Positions 3,858 through 29,817 of a stretch of DNA of 64,000 nucleotides are shown piece after piece. The translations under genes and the position numbers were made by a program. Origin of the DNA: Roseovarius mucosus (GTDB taxonomy: Bacteria; Pseudomonadota; Alphaproteobacteria; Rhodobacterales; Rhodobacteraceae). The DNA is taken from assembly GCF_002080415.1 (NCBI RefSeq), contig NZ_CP020474.1:4043501-4107500 (forward strand). Direction: 5' to 3'. The number at the start of each line of letters is the position of its first letter. Position 1 is the first letter of the stretch. Under the pieces are notes generated by a model that was given only the letters and a program-made list of their open reading frames with translations, did no database searches and was not told where the DNA came from.

Positions 3858-4022
3858 CGGGTGGTTTCCTTTTGGACAGGGGGAGACTCGGGTGGACAGG
3901 TCAGGACAGAGCGCCCGATTCGGGAAAAGAGTAGCATGAAAAGTTCGCAATTTACGGCGTAGGCCTCTTCCCGAAACAGGCGTAAACCATTGATATGAAT
4001 GGACATTGATGGCCAAAGATGA

Positions 4023-8775: not shown

Positions 8776-8778
8776 CCA

Positions 8779-10227: not shown

Positions 10228-11924
10228 GGGGAGAGGACTTTACCGCCGACCGCCTGCTGGCGCTCTATGACCGCGTGGCCGACTCTGAGGACGCCATCCC
10301 CCGCCTGCGCCGCTTTGTGCTGGATCTGGCCGTGCGCGGGAAACTGGTGGAGCATGACCCGAGCGACGAACCGGCGGCAGAGTTGCTGAAGCGGATCGCG
10401 AAGGAAAAGGCGCGGTTGGTGAAGGCGGGCGAGATCAAGGAGGCCAAGCCAATTTCCTTTATTGGCGAGCCTGTGACACCTGCGCCAATGGGCTGGATGG
10501 TTGTGCCATTGGGTGAAGTCATAAATCGTCACCTCGGCGGAGGGACCCCGTCTAAGAATGACCACTCCTATTGGGGCGGCGATATACGCTGGGCCAGCGT
10601 AAAGGACGTTGGCAAGGCCAAGTATGTCGATGATACCATTGATCGGATCACCGAGAAGGGTCTGGAAAATAGCGCTTCCAACCTTGTTCCTGCTGGAAAC
10701 CTGATTGTCGTAACCCGAATGGGGCTTGGACAACTCTCGATCAATCGAGTTCCGGTGGCAATCAATCAGGATCTGCGCGCGCTGTTTCTCTCGCCTTTTG
10801 TGGACATTGATTTTGTTTACAATTTCTTCCTGACCTATGGGATGGAAGGCACTGGACTGACCGTTAAGGGCATCAAGATCGAAGAGTTGCTGGGGATAGC
10901 CTTCCCCCTCCCCCCCCTCGCCGAGCAGCGGCGGATCGTGGCCAAGGTGGATGAACTCATGGCGCTGTGTGACAGGCTGGAGGCGGCGCGGGCGGGGCGC
11001 GAGGGGGTGCGGGATCGGCTGACCGCCGCCACCCTTGCCCGCCTGACCGCTGCCGAGACCGACGCGGAAACCTTCCCCACTCACGTCCGCTTTGCCCTGC
11101 AATCCCTCCCCACCCTCACCACCCGCCCAGATCAGATCAAAACCCTCCGCCAAACCATCCTGAACCTCGCCGTGCGGGGGAAGCTGGTGGCGCAAGACCC
11201 AACCGACGAACCTGCGGCGGAGTTGTTGAAGCGGATTGAAAAGGAACGCGCGGCCCGGTTAGCCGGTGGTCGCGCGCAACTGATGAACGAACTAGAAGCA
11301 GTCGCTGAACACGAACAAGACTTTTATCTTCCTAAAGAATGGAGATGGACGCGGCTTGGCACTGTAATCAAGCTTTGGAATGGCTTCGCCTTCAAGAGCG
11401 CTGACTTCAAGACTACCGGCATACCCGTCATCCGTATTGGCGACTTATCTGACGGTGAGGTAAAGCTCTCCTCGTCCGTTCACGTGTCGAGCGATGTCGC
11501 AGCTTCAGTCTCTGATGAAGTCTGGATTCCAGAGGACGCTCTGTTGCTTGCGATGTCGGGTGCAACAACTGGGAAAACGGCGTTCAATCGAACCGGTAAG
11601 AAATTGCTTCTGAACCAACGTGTTGGGCGCATCGATTGCTTTTCGATGAATGTCAACTTTATCAGGTTCTTCTTCGAAACGATCATCGCTCGAAACCTGA
11701 GTATTTCCCTTGGGACCGCCATTCCGAACCTCAGCACAAAGCAGATATATGAAACTGCGATCCCCCTCCCACCCCTCGCCGAACAACACCGCATCGTGGC
11801 ACGCGTCGATGCCCTGATGGCGCTTTGCGATCAGTTGGAAGCCAGCCTCACCGCCGCCACCACCACCCGCTCTCGCCTGCTGGAATCTCTGTTGCACGAG
11901 GCCTTGAACGGGGCCGTCGCATGA
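10224..11924 (+). CDS. hsdS: Type I specificity subunit
   Basis: A 566-residue HsdS with two target-recognition domains (about residues 90-240 and 370-520), each followed by the conserved segment ending in PLPPLAEQ(R/H)RIVA and a coiled-coil spacer. Before each recognition domain is the conserved repeat LAVRGKLV...DEPAAELLKRI (about residues 35-65 and 313-345). The two halves each read one half of a split target. The target itself cannot be read from sequence. Codon use is less GC-biased in both recognition domains than in the repeats, as expected for domains exchanged by recombination. Confidence 0.93.
   Translation: MRGEDFTADRLLALYDRVADSEDAIPRLRRFVLDLAVRGKLVEHDPSDEPAAELLKRIAKEKARLVKAGEIKEAKPISFIGEPVTPAPMGWMVVPLGEVINRHLGGGTPSKNDHSYWGGDIRWASVKDVGKAKYVDDTIDRITEKGLENSASNLVPAGNLIVVTRMGLGQLSINRVPVAINQDLRALFLSPFVDIDFVYNFFLTYGMEGTGLTVKGIKIEELLGIAFPLPPLAEQRRIVAKVDELMALCDRLEAARAGREGVRDRLTAATLARLTAAETDAETFPTHVRFALQSLPTLTTRPDQIKTLRQTILNLAVRGKLVAQDPTDEPAAELLKRIEKERAARLAGGRAQLMNELEAVAEHEQDFYLPKEWRWTRLGTVIKLWNGFAFKSADFKTTGIPVIRIGDLSDGEVKLSSSVHVSSDVAASVSDEVWIPEDALLLAMSGATTGKTAFNRTGKKLLLNQRVGRIDCFSMNVNFIRFFFETIIARNLSISLGTAIPNLSTKQIYETAIPLPPLAEQHRIVARVDALMALCDQLEASLTAATTTRSRLLESLLHEALNGAVA
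10322..11250 (+). repeat. Internal direct repeats of hsdS
   Basis: The segment 10322-10410 recurs at 11162-11250 with high identity (both encode the LAVRGKLV...AAELLKRI block). A second pair lies near 10906-10983 and 11762-11840 (PPLAEQ...MALCD block). These repeats flank the two recognition domains and could support domain swapping by homologous recombination. Confidence 0.8.
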
Positions 11925-11996
11925 CCGCGACGTCTTGGTTTTATCCGGTTGCCGCTTTGCCTGTGTAACGACCCCCACACGAAAGATTTGCCTGAC

Positions 11997-14900
11997 ATGC
12001 TGACCCAAACAGACCGCCTGACGACAAAAGTTCTGAATGACGCCCGGCGCAAGCTGTTGGAAACCGGCACCCGGAACCGCCTGATCCACGTCAACCGCGC
12101 GAACCAGCGGGCCAATACGCTGAACATCATCAACGAGCGGTGCGACGACATCTTTGGCATCCTGCGCGATCAGGCCAAGCGGATGCGGTTCAAGCCCACG
12201 GGCAAGGATCGCAAGCCCGGCGAAGAGGACGAGGCCAGCCAGTTCACACTGTTGCCGATGGAGGAGGGCGCAGGTGCGGCAGGCCCCGAGCGGTTTACCG
12301 ACCAGTTTCTGGAAACCCCGCTTGGCCCCGAAGCGCAGGCGCGCAGGCTGCTGCGGCTGGCAAGTGACGCCCGCACCGCCGAGGAAGAGCAGGGGCTCAA
12401 CATCCTTTACCTTGCCATCGGGTTCCTGAAATGGCGCGAAAGCAGCAGTTCGGATATCTGGCGCGAGGCGCCCTTGGTGCTGTTGCCGGTCGAGTTGGTG
12501 CGCAACGAGCGGACCTCGACCTATGACATTCGCGCGCGCGAGGATGACATCACCACCAACCTGCCGCTGCAGGAACGGTTGCGCACGGATTTTGGTATTC
12601 TGTTGCCCGAGATTGAGGAGGGCGAAGGCTGGCAGCCGTCAACGTATTTTGCCCAAGTTACGGATGCGGTTTCCGGCCAGCCCGGTTGGGCGGTCGATGC
12701 TGACGGGATGCAGCTTGGGTTTTTCTCCTTCGCCAAGCTCTTGATGCACCGCGACCTTGACCCAGCGGCGTGGCCGAATGGCGGGCTGACGCAAAGCCCG
12801 CTCTTGGGGGGGCTATTGGCCGAAGGGTTTGATGGCGGCACGTCGATTTTCGGGCCAGAGGACAAGCTGGATGCGCTGCTGGACCCCGCGGATATCATTC
12901 AGGTCGTCGATGCGGATGCGTCGCAGACCAAGGTGATCGAAGAGGTGCGGCACGGGGCGAACCTTGTGGTGCAGGGACCGCCCGGCACGGGAAAATCGCA
13001 GACCATCACCAACCTGATCGCAGCGGCGGCGCATGACGGCAAAACGGTGCTGTTCGTGGCCGAAAAGATGGCGGCGTTGTCGGTTGTGCATCACCGGCTG
13101 GTGCGGTCGGGGCTGCGCGATATCTGTCTGGAGCTGCACTCGCGCAGTGCGAATAAAAAGGCGTTGGCGCAAGAGCTTGGCCGGACGTTGAGCGCCAGTG
13201 CGGCGGCAGTGCCGGGGGTGTCTGATGTCTCAGGCCTGCGTCAGAACCGGGACGCGTTGAACCGGATTTCAGACCTGCTGCACACGCCCGTGGGCGCATC
13301 GGGCGACACGCCGTTCCGGGCCATGTCCGAGATTATCGGCCTGATCGGCAAAGGCGCGCAGCCGCCGTCGATCCCGCTGGAGGGGCTTGAACGGCTGGAC
13401 GCGCCCGCGCGCAAGGCCGCGTTGGGGGCCATCGCGCGCTTTATCGAGGCGTTGCGGGTTGTGGGCGCGCCGGACGCACACCCTTACCGCGGTGTGCGGG
13501 AGTATGATCTTCAACCAACCGATCTATCACGCTTGGGCGGCGAACTGGCCGCCGCTGCTGCCGCGCTGACACATGTTTCGGCAGAGGCCGCGCTTTTGGC
13601 ACCCAGCCTCCTGCGGCCTGCACCTGTGACGCTGGCGGATGCTGCGGCACTGGTGTCCGGTTTGAATATATTGGCCTCAGCGCCCGCGCATGCACAGCCT
13701 TTTATCACGCAAAGCCTGCTTGACCGCGTTGATCAGCCCCGCTTGATCGAAGCTTTGACGGCCGGGATCGAATGGTCCGAAGCGCGCCACGAGGCCGAAG
13801 GTAGGTTCACGCCAGCCGCGTGGTCGGCAGAGCTTGTATCGCTGCGGTCTGCTATTACGGGTGGGCAATCATCCTTCCTTGCGCGGATTTTCGGGCCATA
13901 CCGCAAGGCATCGGGCGTTTTGGCCGGGCTGTTGTCGGGCGCGCTTCCAAAGCCCGCCGCTGAGCGTTTGGCGCTGGTTGACCAGTTGGCAGGCGTGCAG
14001 GCCCGCAGGCAGCGACTTGCTGATGAGGAAGCGTGGCTGCAAGTGGCCTTGGGCGAGAATTGGCGTGGTGAGCGCACGGAATTTGCCGCGATCAAGGAAA
14101 TCTCAACCTGGCTCGCAACGGCGAAGGCGGCTGGCTTTGCCACGGCGGACGATCTTCTGGCCGCTCTGGCCGAAATCAAAACGCCGGGACAAGCCGCGCT
14201 TTCTCTGGCGGCTTTGGTGCGCGACGCGCAGGAAAAGGCGGAAAAGCCGATTACCCGGTTGGGGTTTGATCTTGAACAGGCCGGGTTGTCGTCGGAATTG
14301 AAAGAGGCTGATCTAACTGATTTGGCGGCAGTGTTTGAACGGATGCAGACAGAAAGCGGGCGCTATGCCGATTGGGCGGCCCTTGCGCGCGCGACGGCGC
14401 AGACGGTGGAGAACGGAGCAGGCGACGTGATTGACGCGGTTGCGGATGGTCGCGTCGAACCTGCCGCCGCTGGGGACGAATTTACCTATGCTTGCGCCGA
14501 GGCGCGTTGGAATGCGGCACGCGCGGTGCTGCCCGAACTTGGGCAAGTGGCTGGTTTGGACCGGCATGAGCTTGTGCAGATGTTTCAGGAAAAGGAGCGC
14601 TCGCGTCTGAACGAGGCCCAAACGCTGATCCTTGCGCGCCATTTTGCCCAGATCCCCAAGGGCAGCATGGGGGAAATGGGCGTCATTCGCGGTGAGATTG
14701 GTCGCAAAAGCCGCCATAAGCCGATCCGCTGGGTGATGAAAAACGCGGGCTCGATGGTGCAGCGTATCAAGCCCGTCATGCTGATGAGCCCGATTTCCGT
14801 GGCGCAGTTTCTGCCGCCCGGCACGGTGACCTTTGATTTGCTGGTGATTGATGAGGCGTCGCAGATCCGGCCTGAGGATGCGTTGGGCGTGATTGCCCGC

Positions 14901-16700
14901 GCGCGCCAGATCGTGGTGGTCGGGGACCAAAAGCAACTGCCGCCAACGTCGTTCTTTGATCGTCTTGTGGACGATGTCGAAGACAACGAAGAGGACGACG
15001 AAATGCCCGCAGGCGCAACGGCGGCAGATATGGAAAGTATCCTGTCGCTTTGCGAAGCCCGTGGTTTGCGGTCGCGCATGCTGGAATGGCATTATCGGTC
15101 CCGCGATCCATCCTTGATCCGGGTGTCGAACGCGGAATTCTATGATGACAATCTGGTTCTGCCGCCATCGCCACTGCAGCTCGATCCCAATTATGGGATG
15201 AAGTTCCGGCGCGTGCCGGGTGTTTATGCCCGCGGGAAAACTACGTCAGCCCGGGCTGGAACCAACAAGATCGAGGCGCAGCATGTGGTCAAAGCCGTTG
15301 CTGAACATGCCCGCAAAAGCCCCGACCTGTCACTTGGCGTTGTGGCCTTTTCCAAAGCGCAGTCTGATACATTGACCGAGGCGTTGGAATATGAACGCCG
15401 CCGCGATCCGGTTCTGGAGGCGTTCCTGCGCGAAGGTCGGGCCGAGGATGTTTTCGTGAAGAACATCGAAAACGTGCAAGGCGATGAGCGTGATGTGATC
15501 CTGATTTCGGTCGGCTACGGTCCGCAAGAGCCCAACGGTCGGTTGGCATCCATGTCATTCGGCCCGGTGAATGGGGAAGGTGGCGAACGCCGCCTGAACG
15601 TTTTGTTCTCGCGTGCAAGGGTGCGCTGTGAAATTTTCGCCTCGTTCGATCCCGGCGACATTGACCCAAGCCGGTCATCGCGCGTCGGGCCGCGCGTTTT
15701 GAAACGCTTTCTCGATTTCGCGAAAACCGGGATCATTGAAGAACAGGTGGCAACCGGTCTTGATGCGGATAGCCCTTTTGAAGAGGATGTCGCCCGCGTC
15801 ATTCGTGAGCTTGGTTATGAGGCCGACCCGCAGGTTGGCACCGCTGGTTTCCGCATTGACATCGGGGTGCGCCATCCTGACCGCCCCGGTCAGTATATCG
15901 TCGCGGTTGAATGCGATGGGGCGGCATATCACGCGGCACTTTGGGCACGCGAGCGTGACCGCTTGCGGCAGGATGTGCTCGAGGGCCTTGGCTGGCGCTT
16001 CCACCGGATATGGAGCACGGATTGGTTCCATCGCCGAGATCATGAGATTCGCCGTCTTGCCGAAGCCCTTCTCGCCGCAAAAGAATCTTCTGCGGGCGGC
16101 ATTGTTGTGCGAGGCGCAAATACGGGCGGACTCTTGCAAGTGGTTGATGTGGAACAGAATGCGCCGGGCCCGATCGAGATCGGCCATCTGGAATTGACAG
16201 CCCCTCCCTATCAACGCGCAGATTTGTCGGTCAGAAGCACTGTTGAACCCCACGAGGCGCCTCAGGGGCAGATCGGCGATCTGATCATCAAGATCGTCGA
16301 GATTGAAGGGCCGATCCATGTGGATGAAATCGCAAGAAGAGTCGCAACAGCTTTTGGTAAGCTCAAGGCGGGTAGCCGGATCGTTGACGCGACAACGCGT
16401 GCTTTGAAGGCGGTGCAGAGACGCAGCGACAATCCTCTGAAAACGGCGGGACGGTTTGTCATGACCAAAGATCAGGCCGCCGCTCCGCCGGTTCGAGACC
16501 GGAGGGCAGAGACGGGCGGTGTGCTGAAGGCGGAATATCTGCCTCCCATGGAAATTTCCGCTGCAGTTGCGAAGATAAGTGCTGAAAGCGGCATTATGCC
16601 GCCCGAAGAAATGACCAAAGCCGTGGCGCGTTTACTTGGTTTTCAGCGTGTTGGGCCGGATTTGTCGGAGGGTATCAGGGCGGTCGTGGTGAAAGCCTGA
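11997..16700 (+). CDS. DUF4011-helicase-Vsr-like nuclease-DUF3320 protein (Hhe-like defence protein)
   Basis: A 1,567-residue protein. I chose the ATG at 11997 because the 16 codons upstream (to 11949) do not look like protein. The N-terminus matches DUF4011 (helical, starting TDRLTTKVLNDARRKLLE). A superfamily 1 helicase follows: Walker A GPPGTGKS near residue 326, Walker B LLVIDEASQ near 948, then EWHYRS, NIENVQGDERD and the RRLNVLFSRAR motif. From about residue 1260 there is a Vsr/DUF559-like nuclease domain (FEEDVARVI, then RIDIGV and VAVECDGAAYH). Residues about 1400-1490 match DUF3320. The same architecture is listed in defence-system catalogues, to my memory as Hhe. It lies 72 bases after hsdS on the same strand, so it may share the restriction operon. 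Confidence 0.85.
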   Translation: MLTQTDRLTTKVLNDARRKLLETGTRNRLIHVNRANQRANTLNIINERCDDIFGILRDQAKRMRFKPTGKDRKPGEEDEASQFTLLPMEEGAGAAGPERFTDQFLETPLGPEAQARRLLRLASDARTAEEEQGLNILYLAIGFLKWRESSSSDIWREAPLVLLPVELVRNERTSTYDIRAREDDITTNLPLQERLRTDFGILLPEIEEGEGWQPSTYFAQVTDAVSGQPGWAVDADGMQLGFFSFAKLLMHRDLDPAAWPNGGLTQSPLLGGLLAEGFDGGTSIFGPEDKLDALLDPADIIQVVDADASQTKVIEEVRHGANLVVQGPPGTGKSQTITNLIAAAAHDGKTVLFVAEKMAALSVVHHRLVRSGLRDICLELHSRSANKKALAQELGRTLSASAAAVPGVSDVSGLRQNRDALNRISDLLHTPVGASGDTPFRAMSEIIGLIGKGAQPPSIPLEGLERLDAPARKAALGAIARFIEALRVVGAPDAHPYRGVREYDLQPTDLSRLGGELAAAAAALTHVSAEAALLAPSLLRPAPVTLADAAALVSGLNILASAPAHAQPFITQSLLDRVDQPRLIEALTAGIEWSEARHEAEGRFTPAAWSAELVSLRSAITGGQSSFLARIFGPYRKASGVLAGLLSGALPKPAAERLALVDQLAGVQARRQRLADEEAWLQVALGENWRGERTEFAAIKEISTWLATAKAAGFATADDLLAALAEIKTPGQAALSLAALVRDAQEKAEKPITRLGFDLEQAGLSSELKEADLTDLAAVFERMQTESGRYADWAALARATAQTVENGAGDVIDAVADGRVEPAAAGDEFTYACAEARWNAARAVLPELGQVAGLDRHELVQMFQEKERSRLNEAQTLILARHFAQIPKGSMGEMGVIRGEIGRKSRHKPIRWVMKNAGSMVQRIKPVMLMSPISVAQFLPPGTVTFDLLVIDEASQIRPEDALGVIARARQIVVVGDQKQLPPTSFFDRLVDDVEDNEEDDEMPAGATAADMESILSLCEARGLRSRMLEWHYRSRDPSLIRVSNAEFYDDNLVLPPSPLQLDPNYGMKFRRVPGVYARGKTTSARAGTNKIEAQHVVKAVAEHARKSPDLSLGVVAFSKAQSDTLTEALEYERRRDPVLEAFLREGRAEDVFVKNIENVQGDERDVILISVGYGPQEPNGRLASMSFGPVNGEGGERRLNVLFSRARVRCEIFASFDPGDIDPSRSSRVGPRVLKRFLDFAKTGIIEEQVATGLDADSPFEEDVARVIRELGYEADPQVGTAGFRIDIGVRHPDRPGQYIVAVECDGAAYHAALWARERDRLRQDVLEGLGWRFHRIWSTDWFHRRDHEIRRLAEALLAAKESSAGGIVVRGANTGGLLQVVDVEQNAPGPIEIGHLELTAPPYQRADLSVRSTVEPHEAPQGQIGDLIIKIVEIEGPIHVDEIARRVATAFGKLKAGSRIVDATTRALKAVQRRSDNPLKTAGRFVMTKDQAAAPPVRDRRAETGGVLKAEYLPPMEISAAVAKISAESGIMPPEEMTKAVARLLGFQRVGPDLSEGIRAVVVKA

Positions 16701-16887
16701 GGGTGGAACAGGCACCTGGAGCAAGAATGACGCACTCGGCGCAGAGGGGACTTTGACCGTGCCATAGGTTGCCGCACTGCCGCTTCCCAGAAGCGGAAAT
16801 TGACGAGCGGTGGCTAGGTCCACAGCCAGTTGGTGACTTAACCTGAGTCTAGTCCTCAAATGACTTGAGAGTGAAGGGGTACTCCAC

Positions 16888-18540
16888 TCAAGTAGAGCAG
16901 GCTGGACAATTTTTTGCTCGTTCAACGTTCTTGAATGGAACTTGGACAGTAGCTGACGGGACTACCTGAACCGTACGCAAATCATAATCGTATCGATCCA
17001 GGAAGACTTCACTTGCATGGGTCGCGGCCAATGCTGCCGCCTGCATAGATGCAGGGACGGCATAGGGAATGAATGAGCCTTGCGCACAGGGCCGAATGGC
17101 TATGCCGGTTTCCCTGGCCTCCGGCTTGAGGGGATTAAAGCGCCACTCGCCCTCGAAACGCGGCTTCAGACAGCGATAGCAAGCTCTGCCTTTTTCCCAG
17201 CGGGCAAGATAGCTTTGTGCAGCAAGGCCATTGCCAAAGAGCATGGTAAATAGCGTCGGCGAAAAGGGCTCAGCACCACCGATCCGCGTGAGCGCGAAGC
17301 CATTCAGCGCCTCGGAGAACTGCTCATCGCCCGTTGCATCGATGACCAGATCATAGCCTGCAAGGCGATCAAAAGTGCCCTGCGCCTGCGCGGCGACGGC
17401 CTCACGCTTCGCGTCCGGAAAATCGCTTCCGATTTGGTCGGCCAAGGCCACGGCCTTGTTTCGCCAAAGATGGCGCGCGCCCAGGATGTGCCGCCCAAGA
17501 TTTTCCGGCTTAAGGTCATCATGGTCGATGAGCAGCAATTCAGCACCGTGCCCTGCACCGAGCTGGACAAGCGCACGGGCGAGATAGCCGCCAATCGTTC
17601 CGCACCCGATCATTGCGAGCCGCTTCCCCGTCAGCGGCGCGGCCCTATCGAGATTGCGCGCAGTGATTTCATCTTGGCTGGCAGGTACGCAATGGAAGGT
17701 CTCCAAGCGCGCGCGTCCGGCCTCTTTTTTCCAGACACCGGGTAGCGCAGACACCCTAAATCCCCCTTGCTCCGACTTCTTGATCAGCGTGGTCTTTTCC
17801 GCGCGGAACCCGATGATCGCATTCGATGCTGCGATCAGGAGCACGGGCCTATCCTTGGCCGTGCCAATGGCAAGATCGACCAATGATCGCGCGCTTCCCG
17901 TTTGCGGCTGAAGCCAGTCGGTCGCGCCTTTCAGTGTAAGAGTCCCGGAAGATGGCGGTCGGATCGCATCAATCGCATGCACGACAGGCGCTTCAAAGGT
18001 CTTGGTGAATGTCCCTCCGGCCTTTTTGGTCCAGGCTTGAAGGCGCTCTTCGCTCTTTCCTGCGATGAGGATCTGGGGACCGTTCTGAAACGCACAGACA
18101 CCGAACACGCAACGCGTTAAGCCCGACTGTTTATCAACAAGGCAATAGGGCGTGGCGCTCCAATAGGCGGCCAGCTCGGCCATGTAGGCTGCGCTCGGGT
18201 TGCCGTGAAGCAATGCGTTGAGCGTTGTACAGGCCTGCTCAAGACAGGAGGCCACACTGCGATCTGGTTGGTAGCGGTCGAGCAAGAACGTGGCTTTGTC
18301 CGCATAGCACAGGCTGCCGTCACTGACGATATGAGCGGTGAGGCGCCTGGGAAGAGCGCCGCGCTTGAGGACGCGAATTTTTGGCATATCGAGAAAGTCG
18401 TAATCGGTAATCTCGATCTCTAAGGATACTGATACCGTGCCAACCTTAACCTGGCCTTGATACCGATCCCGCCCGGAGCCTGGCACGAGGGTAAACCCGT
18501 GTCCGGCAAGAACCTCACGCACGCGCTCCCAGGCGTCCAT
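16888..18540 (-). CDS. cap2: Cap2-like E2-E1 fusion of a CBASS system
   Basis: A 550-residue fusion. The N-terminal about 150 residues form an E2-like domain with His 70 and the candidate catalytic Cys 78 (HIVSDGSLCYAD). The C-terminal half is a ThiF/E1 adenylation domain: GCGTIGG (312-318), LLIDHDDLKPENLGRH, a zinc knuckle (Cys 454, 457, 545, 548) and Cys 485 in RPCAQGSF, a candidate E1 thioester cysteine. In type II CBASS, Cap2 conjugates the CD-NTase C-terminus to target molecules and raises its activity. Its start overlaps the stop of the CD-NTase gene by one base (TGATG at 18538-18542). The next plus-strand gene ends at 16700, leaving no room for a Cap3 protease. Confidence 0.85.
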   Translation of the reverse strand: MDAWERVREVLAGHGFTLVPGSGRDRYQGQVKVGTVSVSLEIEITDYDFLDMPKIRVLKRGALPRRLTAHIVSDGSLCYADKATFLLDRYQPDRSVASCLEQACTTLNALLHGNPSAAYMAELAAYWSATPYCLVDKQSGLTRCVFGVCAFQNGPQILIAGKSEERLQAWTKKAGGTFTKTFEAPVVHAIDAIRPPSSGTLTLKGATDWLQPQTGSARSLVDLAIGTAKDRPVLLIAASNAIIGFRAEKTTLIKKSEQGGFRVSALPGVWKKEAGRARLETFHCVPASQDEITARNLDRAAPLTGKRLAMIGCGTIGGYLARALVQLGAGHGAELLLIDHDDLKPENLGRHILGARHLWRNKAVALADQIGSDFPDAKREAVAAQAQGTFDRLAGYDLVIDATGDEQFSEALNGFALTRIGGAEPFSPTLFTMLFGNGLAAQSYLARWEKGRACYRCLKPRFEGEWRFNPLKPEARETGIAIRPCAQGSFIPYAVPASMQAAALAATHASEVFLDRYDYDLRTVQVVPSATVQVPFKNVERAKNCPACST

Positions 18541-19754
18541 CAGCCCGAAGTCGTGCGCGCCGTGGTCATAAGCGGTGCTCTGGAGATAACCGCCGCAGGG
18601 GCGGCGACCTCGGGCACCCTGCTATGAGCTTTGACAAGGTCGGGGCGGTTCGGCACACGCCGACCGAGCGCGTTCTGAAGGCGCTGTACGGTCAGGTCTT
18701 GCAAGTAATGCCCGTTCAGCGCGGTCCCGACCGTCTCGTGCAGTTGGTTTGCGGCGCTATGATAGCGGGCACGCTCGATGTCGTCCCAGTCATTTAGGGT
18801 GCTCGGGACGTCCAAGACCGGGTTCTGAATCGGATCGCGCAAAAAATTGGAAAGCGCACCTGCGACCTGATGAAACGCCAAATCGTCTCTTGCCTCGTCG
18901 GCAGAGACAAGGTCTTCGCGGTAGCAGTTGGCGATACAGACCATGAGCGCAACCGAAGACGGCCCGCCTTGCTCGAAAGCAAAATCGCGCCATCCCTTGA
19001 AGTATCGGCTCTGACGCCGGACCTGCGGCCCGTAGCGTGAGAACTGTTCTTCGAACCAGTCATGAAGGGCGCGGGGGTCGGACTGCACCCAGCCCTCTTC
19101 GCGGTGTGCGAGCATGATTCGGTCCGACGGGATGCGAAGCGTGCGATGACGATCCATCAGAGTGAGCATCTGCGATGCGGCGGTCACCAGCGTTTGGCCG
19201 GTCGCATCGCGAAGGCTCTTTTCCAAGGTCTCGAAGGCATCATCGGGGATCGCGTAGAGCGGGTAGTCGATATGCATGAACGGGCTGATCTCGACCCGCA
19301 CGCAGGTACTCTTCTTCTTGATGGTCCAGCCTTCGGCAATACACAGAGGCTTGATGGCATTCTCGACCAGCTCGAAGAACTTCTTGGCGGCAAGACCAGG
19401 TTCCTGACGGGACAGGAACGAAGTCTTTACGTAGACGCCAGTGTCACGATCGCATTGCTGCGGCGGCATGATGGCCGGTTCGACGGCGGTGTCATAGGCA
19501 AGGCCCCCTTGGAGAAGGAAGCGGACATCAAGGGTCGGCGGTGCTTGCTTAGAGGCGCGATAGGCGTCGGTGGCAAGTGCCATCTGCTTGCCGAACTGAA
19601 CGGCCTCAGAGGCGGCGCGGCGGATGGCGGCACGAAGCTTTCGGTCGGCCTGTAGCAAGGCGCGGCGCGTCTCATCCGGCAGCAAGATCGCCTGATGGTA
19701 GGACGCGCTCGTGTTCGCGCCGAGAAACAGAGCATGGGCATTCATAGTTGACAT
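18540..19754 (-). CDS. DncV-like CD-NTase (CBASS cyclic nucleotide synthase)
   Basis: A 404-residue nucleotidyltransferase. The pattern QGGLAYDTAV, then CDRDTGVYV (metal ligands Asp 105 and 107 when counted from an upstream GTG at 19763), then MHIDYPLYAIP (third Asp, 166) follows DncV: helix GG/GS, DxD-x-G-x-Y and hID-PLY. It should make a cyclic di- or trinucleotide signal on phage infection. The C-terminus ends in a flexible Ala/Thr/Ser-rich tail with a terminal Gly, as expected for a Cap2 substrate. The start is uncertain: ATG 19754 has only a weak GGTGGG ribosome site, and ATG 19745 and GTG 19763 are alternatives. It sits divergent from the membrane effector. Confidence 0.85.
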   Translation of the reverse strand: MSTMNAHALFLGANTSASYHQAILLPDETRRALLQADRKLRAAIRRAASEAVQFGKQMALATDAYRASKQAPPTLDVRFLLQGGLAYDTAVEPAIMPPQQCDRDTGVYVKTSFLSRQEPGLAAKKFFELVENAIKPLCIAEGWTIKKKSTCVRVEISPFMHIDYPLYAIPDDAFETLEKSLRDATGQTLVTAASQMLTLMDRHRTLRIPSDRIMLAHREEGWVQSDPRALHDWFEEQFSRYGPQVRRQSRYFKGWRDFAFEQGGPSSVALMVCIANCYREDLVSADEARDDLAFHQVAGALSNFLRDPIQNPVLDVPSTLNDWDDIERARYHSAANQLHETVGTALNGHYLQDLTVQRLQNALGRRVPNRPDLVKAHSRVPEVAAPAAVISRAPLMTTARTTSG

Positions 19755-19779
19755 AAGACCCACCGGGTTCGTGACATCA

Positions 19780-19800
19780 CATCATACATGATATATGATG
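19780..19800. promoter_or_regulatory. Inverted repeat in the divergent CBASS promoter region
   Basis: Perfect 7-base arms CATCATA and TATGATG are separated by 7 bases (CATGATA), in the 86-base gap between the CD-NTase start and the Cap15-like start. It is AT-rich against GC-rich surroundings and well placed to be an operator governing both genes. No regulator gene lies beside it. Confidence 0.5.
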
Positions 19801-19840
19801 GGCGGGCGAAAAACAAACCACATCTTGAGGAATCTCGCGG

Positions 19841-20491
19841 TTGTACAGAGTCTTAGATAAAACGGCGTTGAATTGGGTTCTGTTCATCCTGTTCGTGGTG
19901 AGCCTGGCCTTCAACGCGGTGCTGATCTGGCCGGAGACGGTCTCGGAACTCATGCGTGTCATCTACACGACCCCGGCCACCTTCGGGCTCATTAGCCTGG
20001 TGCTTGGAGCAACGCCGCTGTGGCGCAAGCTTTGGGGGTTTTTCCCGCAGCTAAACAGCTGGGTCTTCCCCGATCTAAACGGGCGCTGGCAGACTGAAAT
20101 CCACTCAAACATCGCCGTGATGGCGGCGCATCATCTGGATTTTGCGAGCACCGACCCGCAAACCATCAATACACTGGTGCCCGGGCAATTCGAGATCGTT
20201 CAGAATTGGTTCAGGCTATTCATCCGTTTTGATGCCGATGACAAGTACTCGACCTCGAACACACTTGTAGTCGAGCCGAGAAAAGACCGCGAGTCGGGTC
20301 GGTTCACGCTCACATATGTCTACAAAAACGAAACCTCTGCACCTCAGCCAACGGATGAACAGTTTCATTTCGGCGCTGCCCACGTCGAGATCGATCCGAA
20401 CTTCAAGTCCATGCGAGGATGCTACTGGACGAACCGCAATGCCCCACGCGGGCTCAATACAGCGGGATCCATTGAAGCAAAGCGGGTTTAA
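19841..20491 (+). CDS. cap15: Cap15-like CBASS membrane effector
   Basis: A 216-residue protein with a TTG start at 19841 behind GAGG. It has two predicted membrane helices (about residues 10-30, LNWVLFILFVVSLAFNAVLIW, and about 43-65) and then a soluble beta-rich domain beginning with FPDLNGRWQTEIHS. Two membrane helices plus a small beta-barrel with an LNGxW strand is the architecture of Cap15. That effector binds the cyclic nucleotide and disrupts the inner membrane, causing abortive infection. No nearby ATG would keep the first membrane helix, which supports the TTG. Unusually it is divergent from the CD-NTase rather than in one operon. Identification rests on architecture and the short motif. 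Confidence 0.75.
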   Translation: MYRVLDKTALNWVLFILFVVSLAFNAVLIWPETVSELMRVIYTTPATFGLISLVLGATPLWRKLWGFFPQLNSWVFPDLNGRWQTEIHSNIAVMAAHHLDFASTDPQTINTLVPGQFEIVQNWFRLFIRFDADDKYSTSNTLVVEPRKDRESGRFTLTYVYKNETSAPQPTDEQFHFGAAHVEIDPNFKSMRGCYWTNRNAPRGLNTAGSIEAKRV

Positions 20492-20552
20492 AGCCAACAG
20501 CTTCTGGCGGCACATTCCTCTAGCTGCATTCGAATGAAGTTCGCGCCGTGGC

Positions 20553-21845
20553 CTACATCAACCTAAACGCAGGCGACACTTCAGAACTCCCACTCGATGT
20601 AGGTCTGTAGCCTGTTATACTTCCGTCTTGCGAGATTTTGACTCCAAGACCGAACCTCGCCAATCCTTGGGCGGCCGATGTCCGGCCGCCGCCATCACCA
20701 GAATTACTGATTTTTACCACAGCACCGACTGCCAGCACATTACCCTTATGATCCAGTAGTGTTGCTCCATCGATTGAAAGCAACTCTTCCCTAAGCGTAC
20801 GGTCCAGTTCGTGGAAGGGCCGCTTCTGTACGACGGCGCCAAGCACTTTTGTTTTTTCCGAAATTCTTAGGTCCAGCCTGTCAAATTCGGATACCAGCGA
20901 GTGCCAACTCTCGCGTTGACCAGAACCAACAATTCCTAGGCAAGCACCTCGCCTCCCAAACGAGGCGTCGAGAATAGATTCATATATTGCACCACGAATC
21001 TTCGGATCACGCGGCACAGCCATTTGGCCCAAGATCGGACTGTGGGTAAGGAAATGCCAAATCCCATTCCGTCTTGAGAAGAGGAGCTGCCCATCGCGAA
21101 AGACTAGCAACTCTCCATACCCATTAAGTGCAACTGCAACCCTGCCTTCTCGATCTGCGGTCCAGTTAGAAATTGCCGATTGCATCGAAGGGCTTGCCGG
21201 AGCCGTTTTGACCTCATGATTTAGAGAAAGGTGCTGAATGAAACTCAGATCTTCATCGAATGCCAGCATGCTGTTGTACCCGTTCGACAGAACGGCACCG
21301 ATGTCGTTCGAAGCAAATTGGTCAAATTTGATGCTTGTGTCCGTTTTCGCAAAGGGATCGATGCCTATCGCGCCGGTTATTGGCGTACCTTCGTAAAGTC
21401 TCGTCGCCCAGCTCGACATTTGATCGAGCAAGGTAAGAACGTTCTTCTCGATGGATTCTTCAGAGACCGCTCGTGCAACTACTCGCCTTTGGAAGGTCGA
21501 GAGCAGATCGCCTTTGAGGTCTCCCTTCAGCTCGTCGTTCATTTCAGCCATGATACTTGAGAAGGCTTCAATTACCCGAATTTCTCGGGCAGGGTCTTTT
21601 TTCTTTGCGAACGGCTGATCTCTTCGAAATATTAACCGGTATGTATCTGATTTGTTCACCTTAAACCCAATCTTTTGAGGACTGAGATAGGCGACAGTCG
21701 CCTCTGAGGAGCTTGAACGTTCAGAAAACGCGTCTAAAGACGCGCCCGAAAATAATGGGAGCAGGTATTCGTTAGATATCTCTCTGAGAAGATCCTCGTT
21801 CATCCCCTTTGGCAAAGCGGACCGATCTCTTTTCTTAATCGCCAA
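20553..21845 (-). CDS. Protein with C-terminal DisA_N/DAC-like domain, probable nucleotide sensor
   Basis: A 430-residue protein. Residues about 270-415 follow the diadenylate-cyclase (DAC, DisA_N) layout: LREELLSIDGATLLDHKGNVL with the DGA motif at 359-361, then GGGRTSAAQGLARFG (387-401) where active enzymes carry RHR in a G-x-RHRAA segment. The RHR is replaced by GRT, so catalysis is doubtful and a ligand-sensing role is more likely. Aravind and colleagues have described DAC-derived sensor domains in conflict systems. The N-terminal about 200 residues are unrecognised. Start uncertain: TTG 21845, or ATG 21803 preceded directly by AAAGGGG. It lies downstream of an AAA ATPase gene on the same strand, with a 564-base gap. 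Confidence 0.6.
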   Translation of the reverse strand: MAIKKRDRSALPKGMNEDLLREISNEYLLPLFSGASLDAFSERSSSSEATVAYLSPQKIGFKVNKSDTYRLIFRRDQPFAKKKDPAREIRVIEAFSSIMAEMNDELKGDLKGDLLSTFQRRVVARAVSEESIEKNVLTLLDQMSSWATRLYEGTPITGAIGIDPFAKTDTSIKFDQFASNDIGAVLSNGYNSMLAFDEDLSFIQHLSLNHEVKTAPASPSMQSAISNWTADREGRVAVALNGYGELLVFRDGQLLFSRRNGIWHFLTHSPILGQMAVPRDPKIRGAIYESILDASFGRRGACLGIVGSGQRESWHSLVSEFDRLDLRISEKTKVLGAVVQKRPFHELDRTLREELLSIDGATLLDHKGNVLAVGAVVKISNSGDGGGRTSAAQGLARFGLGVKISQDGSITGYRPTSSGSSEVSPAFRLM

Positions 21846-22409
21846 TATTCAAACCATCTCTTGAAAGCCAAACGCAGCGAGGACTTGTTCCTAGCGAATT
21901 CGCCCGTCTGTCTTGTTGCAGTAGTGGTGTGCCAAGTTCACAAGCGAAATCATTCGTGACCAACCATACACCTCCTTGCATCACCTTCTCTTCCCAGTCA
22001 AAGAGTGCGCGCACAAGGCGGTGGGGCAAATGTTGAGTTGTCCGATCACACGGCGACCGATGTCTGCTTTCACCACACGAGATACCTTGTGTAGCATTTG
22101 TAGCGAAAGGCAGCTCTCCGCCCCTCGGGATGGTGACCGTTTAGTCTTCGGTCTCGGCCCTCTACGGACATTCGCGCTTGGTCCAACGGATGGCTGGAGC
22201 CAGTCCAAAGCGGCAGATCGGATCAATGGCGAGCCCCCTCACCAAGCGCAGCGCGTGACAGCTGTCTGCAGTATGCGGAGTTCCCCCAAAATGCAGCTCT
22301 GCGTAGTACGCAAATCAGCCGCAGACACATGTGCCCGCTGCCGAACCGGCACGGGATCTATACGCAATAACCACCAAACCGAACCTGAACCGTTCACCTC
22401 CACTACTCT
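21846..22409. other. Gap between DAC-like gene and AAA ATPase gene
   Basis: The 564 bases hold no frame I can support. The minus strand reads through a few short frames, one of 64 codons (22029-21835) overlapping the next gene start, without a recognisable family. Part of the sequence (about 22040-22330) looks like decayed or rearranged noncoding DNA. It may contain the promoter of the DAC-like gene. Confidence 0.4.
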
Positions 22410-23915
22410 TCACATCCAAATTGCTTGATGCACAACATCGCGAATACGTTTTACTGTCGCCTCACCAATCCCAAAAATTGTGTGTAGTTTTTTATCGCTC
22501 GAGTCTCCGAGCTCCTCAACAGAATTTATACCGGCGCCACGCAGCCGATCAATCTTATCATCGGTCAATCCATAAGGGTATGCATTGGATTTCTTTAGCA
22601 CCGAAATATCCTGCCGGAGGATCTTCAGTTCATCTCCATCGAGCACATTAGGCAGAGTTACGCTCGCAAACAACTGGCCGCTCAAATGTACCTCTGCGGG
22701 TTCCAAGCTTCCATCCACCCACTGCCCAATGCCATCAATAGTCAGGCGACCGGAGGGCATTTCCTCGATTATATTGCAAAGGTTCAGGGCGAATACGGGC
22801 CCTCGACCACCGGACTTCATCCCCCTTGACGCCTCTCGCTTTGAGAGAAACCCCAAGTACTCAAGAATCTCAAATGCTTTGGAGAATTTAGATACCAGCT
22901 GACGATGAATCAGGACCCGATCTTGAGCCAGAGTTCTGGTATCAGATCCCATATTTTTAGTAACATTGGAAACCAAGAGTTCAAAAATTTCCGTCGCGGG
23001 CGCGATCAAAGGCTCGTAAAGTCCAAGCTTGGGCTTAACCTCTTCCATAAGTGGCCAATAGTAATCCGTGGCCATCGCAATGAGTGTCTGATTTAGACTT
23101 GGGACACTAATCTTTTCCATGTCCAAGAACTTATTGCAGGTCAATACAAATGCCCGCATGTTTCCTACGACAGCCCGCGCTATAAGCCTAGAAAATATCT
23201 GAGAACTCAGTCGATCGGAGTATGTCGCAGATTTTACAAGCTTAGGATAGCGTGCGCTCAAGACATCATAGAAGTACGAAGAATCCTTTGATACGTCTGA
23301 TCGATTTAGGTCAAGGACTGTCGCGTCATTGTATACATCAAATCGGATTCCAAACTTAGTCACGCCTGGGTATATCGCGGCCTTGCAAGAGACCGCATTA
23401 CTTGAAAGCGTTCGGAATAGATCGAAGAACACCTCAAGCGGCTTCTCACGTCCAATGTGTGCGGCATCATCGAAAAGCAGCACTATCCGCTTTCCTTGGC
23501 TGCTGGAAAGATCGCTCAGCGCAAGCTGTATGCCCAGTTCATCGACAACATCAGGGAATCCGGCAGGCTGCCCTCGCTCTTGCAGCTCCTTGTTAATGCT
23601 CTTGGAAAGAATCTTTCCAAAGTGGTTGATGTACTCATCTCCATCGGACTTTAATAATGGGAGGTGCCGCAAGCTTACATAAGCGCAGAAAATGGTGTCT
23701 GAGCTTCTCAGGCGCCGATGCGCTTCGATCATTAGAGCACTTTTACCGCTGCCCCGTCCGCCGCGCAAAAGCACTGGACCGTGGGCCGACAGCTTTCGAA
23801 TGATCAAATCATCACTTGAAGCAAAAGAATGAATTCGCTCGAAGTCTTGGGGCGGACAATCTTCAGCTGCGAGTATTAGATGTATGTCATCGTCGTTCAC
23901 AAGCGGGTGTGTCAT
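22410..23915 (-). CDS. AAA ATPase with C-terminal helix-hairpin-helix domain
   Basis: A 501-residue protein. Walker A is GGRGSGKS (52-59) and Walker B is RIVLLFDDAAH (143-153). The layout (short N-terminus, P-loop, long middle, helical lid) resembles ORC/Cdc6-like or STAND-like AAA ATPases used as switches in conflict systems. Residues about 445-500 form a helix-hairpin-helix segment (LTDDKIDRLRGAGINSVEEL, then IFGIGEATVKRIRDVV), a non-sequence-specific DNA-binding fold. Its start overlaps the stop of the 277-residue gene upstream (ATGA at 23912-23915), so the two are coupled. The base composition is visibly less GC-rich than the core genome, suggesting transfer. The exact family and target are not known to me. 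Confidence 0.7.
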   Translation of the reverse strand: MTHPLVNDDDIHLILAAEDCPPQDFERIHSFASSDDLIIRKLSAHGPVLLRGGRGSGKSALMIEAHRRLRSSDTIFCAYVSLRHLPLLKSDGDEYINHFGKILSKSINKELQERGQPAGFPDVVDELGIQLALSDLSSSQGKRIVLLFDDAAHIGREKPLEVFFDLFRTLSSNAVSCKAAIYPGVTKFGIRFDVYNDATVLDLNRSDVSKDSSYFYDVLSARYPKLVKSATYSDRLSSQIFSRLIARAVVGNMRAFVLTCNKFLDMEKISVPSLNQTLIAMATDYYWPLMEEVKPKLGLYEPLIAPATEIFELLVSNVTKNMGSDTRTLAQDRVLIHRQLVSKFSKAFEILEYLGFLSKREASRGMKSGGRGPVFALNLCNIIEEMPSGRLTIDGIGQWVDGSLEPAEVHLSGQLFASVTLPNVLDGDELKILRQDISVLKKSNAYPYGLTDDKIDRLRGAGINSVEELGDSSDKKLHTIFGIGEATVKRIRDVVHQAIWM

Positions 23916-24745
23916 GATACGTGGCTCCGCATTTGAGCGTAGATATCGAAGGCATCGTCCGGCATCAAAGATGAATATGCCGTCGGAATAAAGTGTGAGG
24001 TCAATCCTAGAATTGAGACCCGGGAGAAAAGGTCTTGGAGATTTGCCTTGATTGAGCTCTCGTCGTATTCAATCGCTGAATTGAAAAAATCCCAATGCAC
24101 CCCCTTTGAGAGGCTAGAGTAGAGACGGCCAAGCTCACCCCTCATACGCGGAACGAACGCCTCAGGCTCAATGCTGATAAGCTCCTCAAACTCATCACGC
24201 CCAGAGTTCTGAATTTGGTCGAGAAGCTCACTATACGCCGGTCTCCATATTAGGTGATCGAAGTGCTCAGAAAACAGAGAGCGGCTGATCTTCGCAATAT
24301 CGACGTCGCTCGACCATATTCTGTCCTGCCCAAGCGGCTTGTCCGGATTCATGACATCGCCTTGCCATCTGAAGCCGGACTTCGCGGGGGCGCCATGTTC
24401 AAAGCTGGGTTGGCTTTGGAATTCATTGAGATATAAAAGCCGAAATGGATCTAGACGACCGACAATCGCAGCGCTGGAATTCTCCAAAACAACGCGAGCA
24501 CAGAAAGCGCTAAAGTATTTAGATTCATCAGAGAATTCTTCCTGGAGATATCGAACGCCCTTCGTAGAGAAGGTGTTGATGGTTCTGCTGAGGTGCTGGA
24601 GAGTCTTGTCAGCCTTTGCATCGCCGTGGGGACGTCCACAAACAAGTTCTCCAAGCACGCTATCTTGCCACTGCATCTCCGTCATTTCATCTGCGCCTTG
24701 TCTTTCTGTCAGGCCAGATAAGGTCGACCAGATCCTGGAAAGCAT
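23912..24745 (-). CDS. Helical protein of unknown function, partner of the AAA ATPase
   Basis: A 277-residue protein starting at ATG 24745, with AGGGAC a few bases upstream. It is largely alpha-helical, without signal peptide or membrane segment. The segment RGELGRLYSSLSKGVHWDFF (about 208-227) resembles the Y-x-x-L-S-x-x-V-H stretch of some HEPN-like helical proteins, but the usual R-x4-6-H catalytic spacing is not met, so I do not call it a nuclease. It is translationally coupled to the AAA ATPase, which makes a sensor, adaptor or effector role in the same system likely. A 19-base palindrome lies upstream of its start. Confidence 0.6.
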   Translation of the reverse strand: MLSRIWSTLSGLTERQGADEMTEMQWQDSVLGELVCGRPHGDAKADKTLQHLSRTINTFSTKGVRYLQEEFSDESKYFSAFCARVVLENSSAAIVGRLDPFRLLYLNEFQSQPSFEHGAPAKSGFRWQGDVMNPDKPLGQDRIWSSDVDIAKISRSLFSEHFDHLIWRPAYSELLDQIQNSGRDEFEELISIEPEAFVPRMRGELGRLYSSLSKGVHWDFFNSAIEYDESSIKANLQDLFSRVSILGLTSHFIPTAYSSLMPDDAFDIYAQMRSHVS

Positions 24746-27312: not shown

Positions 27313-29817
27313 ATGACGCATTTATTTGACTATTCCTCCTCCTCTGTCGGGATCAATCAGTTCACGGGTTATAGCATAAGTAACTTGTTTGGCACCGTTG
27401 ATGGCACTTTTCTGCCCGCCGAGTTCTGGGACCCTCTGGGCGCTCTTTCAGGTGTGTTAAGCTACCATTTCGTGGAGTTCGATGAAGTAAGAACCGGCAG
27501 TTTCCGATTTAACATCGATGCGTTCGGAACATTTTCACAGCAAGTGTCTGGTTCTGGGGATGTTTTTTCCCCCATTTTCTACGCCGACGATCCTGAGTTT
27601 TTCGCGTCCGAAGATTTTTTCACCGGAGAGGCACAGTTGACGCTCTTTGGTTTGAGCAGCCAGAGCTATTTGCGCTTCGAAGGGTTGCCGACACTTGAGC
27701 GGAGTTTTGGGCCGCTGCCCTCAGAGCCGTTCGCGGATTTTAACAATGCGACAGCATTTGCTGTCTCAGCGGCGGCGCTGGCAAACGCGGAACATCTCGC
27801 GAGCTTGCAGGCGTTGCAACCCGCGTCATTAGCCACGGCCATACGGATTGTTGCAGAGAATTTCGGCCCCGACCCGGCTGCGGGGACTGTCCGCCTTGTC
27901 TATACACCCGATGTGACCACAAGCCTGACCTTTGCCGATTGGATCGGACTAGATCCATCGGGCTTTAACGATGCCTATGGCGCGCAGCTTGTTGATACGC
28001 GTAGCCTTTTCTCAAATGAGGATGTTGAAGTTATTCTGACGGATTTCGACGATTCTCTTAGTGACGCCGGCGGAGGTTTTGCCGCGCGGCGCGTCATGAT
28101 CAACGCAGGCGGGGGCGATGACATCATCGACATGAGAGGCGACGCGACAAGCGGTGTCTTGCCCTTCGCCCTGACAGTGCCGTCGATTGTGTCCGTTGAC
28201 GGCGGCGAGGGCAACGACAGTATCTCCTTTGTCGTAAAGGTCTCTGGATTTGTTGATGGGGGCGCAGGCAATGACACGATCTTCGGGTCCAGTCCGTCAG
28301 ACGGTCTTGCCGCCTTTTTCGAAGCGCATGGCGGAGATGGCGAAGATCAATTCCAAGGGCTTAATAACGGTGCAAATCTGTTCTTTGGCGGAAATGATAA
28401 TGATCTGTTGATAGGTGGATTTGACTCTGCGGATACGATCCACGGCGGGGCCGGTGATGACAACATCGGTGCAGGGTCATTCTTCAACTTCTCACTGGGC
28501 GCAAACATTTACTCCGACGTCGCAAACCTGTTTCATGGTGACGCGGGCAATGACACCCTCTTTGGCGGCAACGGTGCTGACACTCTCCATGGAGGTGATG
28601 GAGACGACTATATCTTGCCTCTTCTTGGGGATGACGTTGTCCATGGCGGGGCGGGTTTTGATACTTATTCACTGAGCGTTGGAAACGGCGGATTTGAGGG
28701 ATCGGATGTCTCTCGCAGCTTTGGGGATAAGCTCATTGTTGATACTGGCGGCATCCTGGAATTCGCTCCATGGATGAGCGCTGACTTCAACACAAATTTG
28801 CTGGAACGGCTTGGGAATGACCTTGTGATCGGCACTCTTGGTCAATCCAGCATTCGGCTGGTTGATTTCTACTCTAATCCTACCGGCTGGATTTCAACTT
28901 CTGACGATTCAAGAGAAATCGATTTTGCCCGTGCGGCGACACTTTCTGACTCATCACCAGAGGTGCCTGAGGGTGGTGACACGATTACTGGCGGTGACAC
29001 CGACGACACAATCGCCGGGAGCGTAGGTAACGATGTGCTTGACGGGGGGGCTGGCAATGACCGGATTGCCGCCTCGGACGGCGATGACCTCGTATCGGGC
29101 GGCGCTGGCAATGACAGTATCGGCGGTGGTCTGGGAAATGACACGATCGACGGCGGCGATGGGGATGACGTTATCGGTGGTGGTTTTGGGAATGATTCCA
29201 TTATCGGTGGCGACGGCCGGGATTTAGTTGCTGGCGGCGCCGGCAACGACACGCTCTCGGGTGGCTCCGGAAATGACAGCATGTCTGGCAGTTTTGGCAA
29301 CGATCTGATCGACGCAGGTTTGGGGGCGGATGACATCGGTGGCGGCACCGGGCGCGATACCATCAACGCCGGTGCTGGAAATGACCGGGTCGGCGGCGGC
29401 GAGGGCAATGACACAATCTCGGGTGGCAACGGCAATGACTTTCTTGCCGGTGGTGGACGGGACGACATCATCGACGGCGGCACGGGCAATGACACAATCA
29501 ACGGCGGCGCAGGCAATGACGTGATGACTGGCGGCGCAGATGCGGATCAGTTCGTGTTCAGCGCCTTCTTCGACGGTGAGGTCGATGTCATCACCGATTT
29601 CGAAGATGGGATCGACAGCTTCTTCATCCGCCGTTTCGATCCCGATACCGGTGTTGAGAATATCAGCAACGGCGGTAATGGGCTTGCCGGGTTCGTCGCG
29701 GCGATGAATATCGTCGACGTGGCGGGCGGCGCGCAGATGACGGTGAATGGCAACACCATCCTTGTCGAGGGCATCACAGCGGCGCAACTGACGGTAGAGG
29801 ATTTTCAGTTCCTGTAA
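27313..29817 (+). CDS. RTX (calcium-binding repeat) secreted protein
   Basis: An 834-residue protein starting at ATG 27313 behind AGAGGAAA. The N-terminal about 260 residues have no family I can name. Two blocks of glycine-aspartate nonapeptide repeats (GGxGxDxxx) follow, at about residues 260-450 and 555-740, each binding calcium in a beta-roll. The last about 95 residues are a conserved acidic module (FVFSAFFDGEVDVITDFEDG and following) that also ends the second RTX protein. Absence of an N-terminal signal peptide and presence of C-terminal repeats point to type I secretion to the outside. No secretion ATPase gene is nearby. Role unknown; adhesin or surface-layer type is possible. Confidence 0.8.
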   Translation: MTHLFDYSSSSVGINQFTGYSISNLFGTVDGTFLPAEFWDPLGALSGVLSYHFVEFDEVRTGSFRFNIDAFGTFSQQVSGSGDVFSPIFYADDPEFFASEDFFTGEAQLTLFGLSSQSYLRFEGLPTLERSFGPLPSEPFADFNNATAFAVSAAALANAEHLASLQALQPASLATAIRIVAENFGPDPAAGTVRLVYTPDVTTSLTFADWIGLDPSGFNDAYGAQLVDTRSLFSNEDVEVILTDFDDSLSDAGGGFAARRVMINAGGGDDIIDMRGDATSGVLPFALTVPSIVSVDGGEGNDSISFVVKVSGFVDGGAGNDTIFGSSPSDGLAAFFEAHGGDGEDQFQGLNNGANLFFGGNDNDLLIGGFDSADTIHGGAGDDNIGAGSFFNFSLGANIYSDVANLFHGDAGNDTLFGGNGADTLHGGDGDDYILPLLGDDVVHGGAGFDTYSLSVGNGGFEGSDVSRSFGDKLIVDTGGILEFAPWMSADFNTNLLERLGNDLVIGTLGQSSIRLVDFYSNPTGWISTSDDSREIDFARAATLSDSSPEVPEGGDTITGGDTDDTIAGSVGNDVLDGGAGNDRIAASDGDDLVSGGAGNDSIGGGLGNDTIDGGDGDDVIGGGFGNDSIIGGDGRDLVAGGAGNDTLSGGSGNDSMSGSFGNDLIDAGLGADDIGGGTGRDTINAGAGNDRVGGGEGNDTISGGNGNDFLAGGGRDDIIDGGTGNDTINGGAGNDVMTGGADADQFVFSAFFDGEVDVITDFEDGIDSFFIRRFDPDTGVENISNGGNGLAGFVAAMNIVDVAGGAQMTVNGNTILVEGITAAQLTVEDFQFL

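Follow-up and report, generated by a model that had tools for sequence, protein, structure and literature searches.

A 64,000-nucleotide stretch of the Roseovarius mucosus genome (contig NZ_CP020474.1, positions 4,043,501 to 4,107,500; hereafter the window) contains a defence island in which three adjacent minus-strand genes, between positions 20,553 and 24,745, were analyzed. The first open reading frame (ORF; 20553..21845, with a 416-aa form starting at 21803) encodes a protein with a C-terminal diadenylate cyclase (DAC)-fold domain, designated DACL, which is linked to a cyclic oligonucleotide-based anti-phage signalling system (CBASS). A 564-bp gap on the same strand separates it from the gene of an AAA-type ATPase with a C-terminal helix-hairpin-helix (HhH)-like segment (22410..23915; profile matches below curated cut-offs). 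This gene is coupled to that of a helical, possibly HEPN-like protein (23912..24745; homologues, structural model and fold matches), the two ORFs sharing four bases. The gene positions and the coupling reported in the initial annotation were confirmed, as was the island setting, with integrases, type I restriction-modification (R-M) genes, a PDC-S37 helicase and CBASS genes nearby. None of the three proteins matched a PADLOC model at E-values up to 1, in agreement with the earlier view that the set has no named counterpart. As the best explanation of the whole, it is likely that the stretch consists of two adjacent, independently moving modules, a type II CBASS with DACL and the helical-ATPase pair.

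The CBASS genes lie on the other side of DACL. They encode a Cap2-type E1-E2 fusion (16888..18540, minus strand; PADLOC PDLC00842, 672 bits; ThiF and Prok-E2_B over Pfam cut-offs), a CD-NTase of the cGAMP synthase/DncV type (18540..19763, minus strand; NF041078, 285 bits against a cut-off of 150; PF21654 and PF21713 over cut-offs), and the effector Cap15 with two transmembrane segments (2TM) and a cyclic-dinucleotide receptor domain (19841..20491, plus strand; PF18153, 51.8 bits against a cut-off of 31.2; PADLOC 2TM effector, 210 bits). With CD-NTase, Cap2 and cyclic-nucleotide effector all present, the system is a type II CBASS. None of the listed ORFs from 16.9 to 21.8 kb was assigned as a Cap3/JAB gene, in a scan that left out small ORFs; the Cap3 JAB protease is present in two relative loci (L004 and L024). 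When the window between 15 and 27 kb was compared at the DNA level with 17 loci from other genomes, positions 16876-22115 matched Roseovarius sp. 217 (L003) as a single contiguous block at 86.7%, and 17942-22095 matched Salipiger abyssi (L002) at 92.6%, the contig of the latter ending there on the E1-E2 side. Both matches end upstream of DACL, short of the ATPase gene at 22410. The CBASS-DACL gene order was retained in Yoonia (L009), and the genes were present in rearranged order in Rhodobacter sp. NTK016B (L004). The cassette at 16876..22115 thus unites CD-NTase, Cap2 and Cap15, as in type II CBASS, with DACL in one DNA block, and differs from that system by a new DAC-fold accessory.

The distribution of the genes in other genomes points to the same division. 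The survey covered 21 DACL loci, namely the window, 17 from genomes and three from plasmids, several of which end early at contig ends. The set of genome loci is biased towards close relatives, having been retrieved with a pair of short peptide patterns, and several of its members are closely related to each other. Profile searches detected an ATPase or helical homologue in none of the 20 other DACL loci, and tblastn found DACL, CD-NTase, E1-E2 or Cap15 in none of the 12 other ATPase loci. Within the phylum, the DACL profile matched only its own genome among 398, and the ATPase profile matched 7 of 398 (own included; one match a 77-residue fragment); the two scans used two draws of 398 genomes, alike in size and first entries. 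The DAC-like gene had been described as the next on the same strand, and strand and adjacency hold; the 564-bp gap and the end of the conserved block nevertheless divide the modules. DACL belongs to the CBASS, a named system lying outside 20,553 to 24,745, while the pair remains unnamed.

In every one of the nine loci whose close ATPase is full-length (window, L020, L021 and L033-L038), the helical gene lies directly upstream; the two genes overlap by 4 bp in seven of these loci and by 7 bp in L037, and are 2 bp apart in L038. The genes flanking the pair vary between loci. For the four distant plasmid relatives of the ATPase (24-26% identity), no helical homologue could be detected. Among 8000 scored candidates, 1127 ATPase homologues were obtained, and the key Walker A and B residues were present in 28 of 28 rows. 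Its profile matches were all under curated cut-offs (AAA_16, E = 8.5e-6; HHH_5, E = 5.9e-4; ORC-CDC6-like, E = 0.0096); the HhH match was weak (20.7 bits, cut-off 27), and profile residues 440-495 matched DMC1 at E = 0.015. NCBIfam gave only sub-threshold P-loop or HhH-region matches, including a weak likeness to the anti-phage ATPases DS41_1 and the Sll1717 family (17.8 and 18.7 bits) that falls far short of the respective cut-offs (370 and 75 bits) and is confined to some 50-80 residues at the P-loop. For the helical protein, 202 homologues were found, many of about 247-250 aa, and its true start is probably later than 24745. The PDB sequence search with its profile gave no match, and its fold is weakly nearest to HEPN toxins by fold matching of the model, with Foldseek not significant. 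The Rx4-6H motif is absent and an invariant YS..SKG.H is found instead (16/16 rows). Compared with two-gene HEPN systems such as HEPN-MNT and AbiV, the partner here is an AAA/HhH-like ATPase and the canonical Rx4-6H is missing. Homology of the helical protein to the R-x4-H proteins that accompany distant ATPases (E = 0.98 and 0.023 in hhalign) and to a 239-aa Planktothrix neighbour (E = 0.49) was considered and left unproved.

The pair was present in 2 of 385 genomes of the class, own included, and a search for further ATPase genomes in two orders returned only those previously known. Two copies were found in viral contigs, at 47% identity. In L021 the pair has as neighbours a portal gene, with a gpP-type terminase after it, and a gene for head scaffolding; in L020 it adjoins an integrase. 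No gpA gene was identified in L021. Rousset et al. locate the P2 defence hotspot close to cos, with gpA on one side and the portal gene gpQ on the other. PHROGs (E up to 0.01) gave nothing for either protein, and scans of viral contigs with the helical profile and of phage records for the ATPase yielded nothing useful. Among the literature matches listed, no title or abstract opening described the pair earlier. Its constant gene order, patchy spread and two copies as prophage cargo indicate a module of its own. A toxin-antitoxin or plasmid/prophage maintenance function in place of an antiviral one is doubtful: it would fit two coupled genes on mobile DNA and the weak HEPN-toxin likeness, but one copy occupies the P2 position described by Rousset et al. 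as an anti-phage hotspot, and the window copy sits within a dense defence island. The two roles are compatible, and the pair, a mobile two-gene module as yet without a name, is probably antiviral as well. It is a compact mobile candidate defence system missing from the defence library searched. Separately, relatives of the ATPase were seen on a Planktothrix plasmid (L023:338-14155), together with DUF4007, PAPS reductase, the 239-aa helical-looking protein, a helicase, an ATP-binding protein, DUF2779 and PLD genes, and on Cupriavidus and Rhizobium plasmids (L045 and L046), where a methylase-type gene, the ATPase relative and an R-x4-H protein in series may be a further three-gene system.

In its 416-aa form, DACL comprises a weakly GAF-like region (2-98), a middle part (about 100-255) and a DAC-fold domain (about 255-416). 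DGA and RHR are motifs of diadenylate cyclases. Across 54 alignment rows, D and G of the DGA motif were invariant and A was found in 49, and the acidic residue of an SQD motif was found in 52. The RHR motif has been lost apart from its first R (53/54), since H occurs in 0/54 (position 375) and the second R in 1/54 (position 376); the DAC pocket is thus partly conserved. DACL differs from the diadenylate cyclases DisA and CdaA by this loss, by another N-terminal region, and by its occurrence in genomes of which most show no canonical DAC over cut-off: PF02457 was unmatched in its own genome and gave nothing over cut-off in 14 of the 17 other DACL genomes, some of which are drafts of unstated completeness. 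On these counts a place in housekeeping cyclic di-AMP (c-di-AMP) machinery was rejected. Hhalign against two canonical DACs reached a probability of only 5.9, the DACL profile retrieved just two rows from the PDB sequences, both at chance level, and neither PHROGs nor a scan of viral contigs with this profile gave anything useful.

The DefensePredictor paper (PMC13092281) describes DS-2 as a phospholipase, a cGAS and a DAC, whose defence was abolished by mutation of two DAC residues predicted to be catalytic; it reports 15 of 30 DAC homologues beside CBASS and cites Galperin 2023 for this association. The DAC domains of DACL and DS2_3 are homologous (hhalign score 56.8, against 23.0 for the best of 25 column shuffles), which bears out the DAC-like domain first annotated. 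The two proteins match in this domain only: DACL scored 12.9 bits against DS2_3 (NF053872), with a cut-off of 630. A DACNG-DACNH front like that in the DS2_3 of locus L012 was not matched in DACL, and identity of the middle part of DACL with DACNH remained unproved (13.6, shuffles up to 17.0; single-sequence version 14.0, shuffles up to 19.0). Seven DS2_3 relatives lack RHR as well. In E. coli AR_0128 (L047:2068-9733) a DS-2-like set of patatin, nucleotidyltransferase (NTase) and DS2_3-like genes adjoins a second, type II CBASS; among 5426 genomes of E. coli, 18 carry the DS2_3-like gene. A literature search joining diadenylate cyclase, R-M and CBASS matched the DefensePredictor paper alone; among the matches listed, a looser search gave no other title on DAC proteins in defence, and no title or abstract opening described the DACL family.

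CBASS adjoins DACL in 11 of the 21 loci (window included). This count and those of the other neighbours are raw, uncorrected for the general frequency of CBASS and R-M. A type II set with E1-E2 was found in the window, L002, L003, L004, L009 and L024, and a patatin-NTase pair in L005, L007, L008, L011 and L012. In L005 the pair exceeded the NCBIfam cut-offs for DS2_1 and DS2_2, and DACL follows it, a further likeness to DS-2 besides the DAC-domain protein beside CBASS; the other four pairs were assigned via BLAST clustering with L005. DS2_3 and DACL are present together in L012, and DACL is therefore no simple DS2_3 substitute. In L006, L010 and L016 DACL lies in type I R-M operons after hsdS and before hsdR, with an extra gene before hsdR in L016 and hsdR in two ORFs in L006; subunits were typed directly in L006 and by clustering with it in the other two. 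The other seven loci include L015, with an IetS-like gene downstream, L018, where a UG9 reverse transcriptase lies 1.6 kb from DACL, and L025, with a shortened copy amid insertion sequences; L013, L014, L017 and L026 showed no named defence system in the few neighbours scanned or read. The neighbourhood in L018 (10240-13516), from a candidate division Hyd24-12 genome with a distant DACL, also holds a DNA polymerase A-like neighbour of the reverse transcriptase.

A tree of 19 DACL proteins, with 5 of 16 inner branches drawn open, grouped the R-M copies of L006 and L010 with the CBASS copies of L024, L005, L007 and L008 and with L013 (support 99/97), and placed the R-M copy of L016 elsewhere. 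This phylogeny suggests that DACL partners have been exchanged. Tentatively, DACL may be a portable nucleotide-sensing or signalling subunit fitting mechanistically unrelated immune systems: two CBASS types, type I R-M between hsdS and hsdR, and perhaps reverse-transcriptase and IetS-like loci. If so, a shared adenine-nucleotide signal would join restriction and abortive signalling. The importance of DAC proteins in phage defence was shown only recently with DS-2, and DACL represents a second DAC-fold family, with part of the usual active site gone, beside CBASS and within restriction operons.

DACL might instead be an active cyclase that produces a further signal, whether c-di-AMP or a different dinucleotide, and so turn the CBASS into a two-cyclase system. 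The conserved Asp and Gly of DGA, the motif Arg and the SQD acidic residue would agree with this, as would the need of DS-2 for the predicted catalytic residues of its DAC; with PF02457 mostly giving nothing over cut-off, in most DACL genomes therefore no competing housekeeping c-di-AMP enzyme was found. The reduction of RHR to R argues against it, as does the lack of RHR in the seven DS2_3 relatives, and such activity is not very probable. A general brake or immunity factor against self-activation of nearby defence systems would account for partners as mechanistically unlike as CBASS, type I R-M, the UG9 reverse transcriptase nearby and the IetS-like gene, as expected of a shared safety device. 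It is unlikely, given that DAC mutations abolish rather than enhance DS-2 defence, yet the DS2_3 match is confined to the DAC domain. DACL offers a direct test of whether immune DAC proteins make, sense or dampen a signal. That the three genes form one undescribed nucleotide-signalling system, as initially proposed, is highly improbable and was rejected: although adjacent, on one strand and similarly low in GC content, they co-occur in no other locus examined, the outcome which that proposal had itself named as its refutation, a DNA block boundary separates DACL from the ATPase, and DACL accompanies CBASS and R-M instead.

Under the two-module reading, the E1-E2 protein would prime the CD-NTase, which on infection would make a cyclic nucleotide that activates the membrane-located Cap15. 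The DAC pocket of DACL may bind an adenine nucleotide or cyclic dinucleotide, or make a modified one, and could set the response threshold or license the response, by analogy with the requirement of DS-2 defence for its DAC. In the second module, the ATPase would bind phage DNA or a DNA intermediate via its HhH-like end, and ATP turnover would release or activate the helical, possibly HEPN-like partner, which would halt growth, probably through action on RNA.

The GC content falls to 50-51% at 20-24 kb and 52-53% at 24-28 kb; the rest of the first 50 kb has 55-64%. At the left end of the island lie two successive integrase-type genes (1114-4016), the second just under the Pfam cut-off. Type I R-M genes for HsdR, HsdM and HsdS follow at 6292-11924 on the plus strand; they include no DACL gene, though the same island holds DACL. 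Directly downstream is a large DUF4011/Hhe-like helicase gene (11949-16700; PADLOC PDC-S37, 1804 bits; NCBIfam ProA, 1313 bits, cut-off 1500). Past the three genes, an IS110 transposase is found at 25.2-26.2 kb, followed by genes for two large repeat proteins at 27313-29817 and 34203-36398; in the latter, calcium-binding repeats of the RTX type occur together with a VWD domain, and the former is similar by eye.
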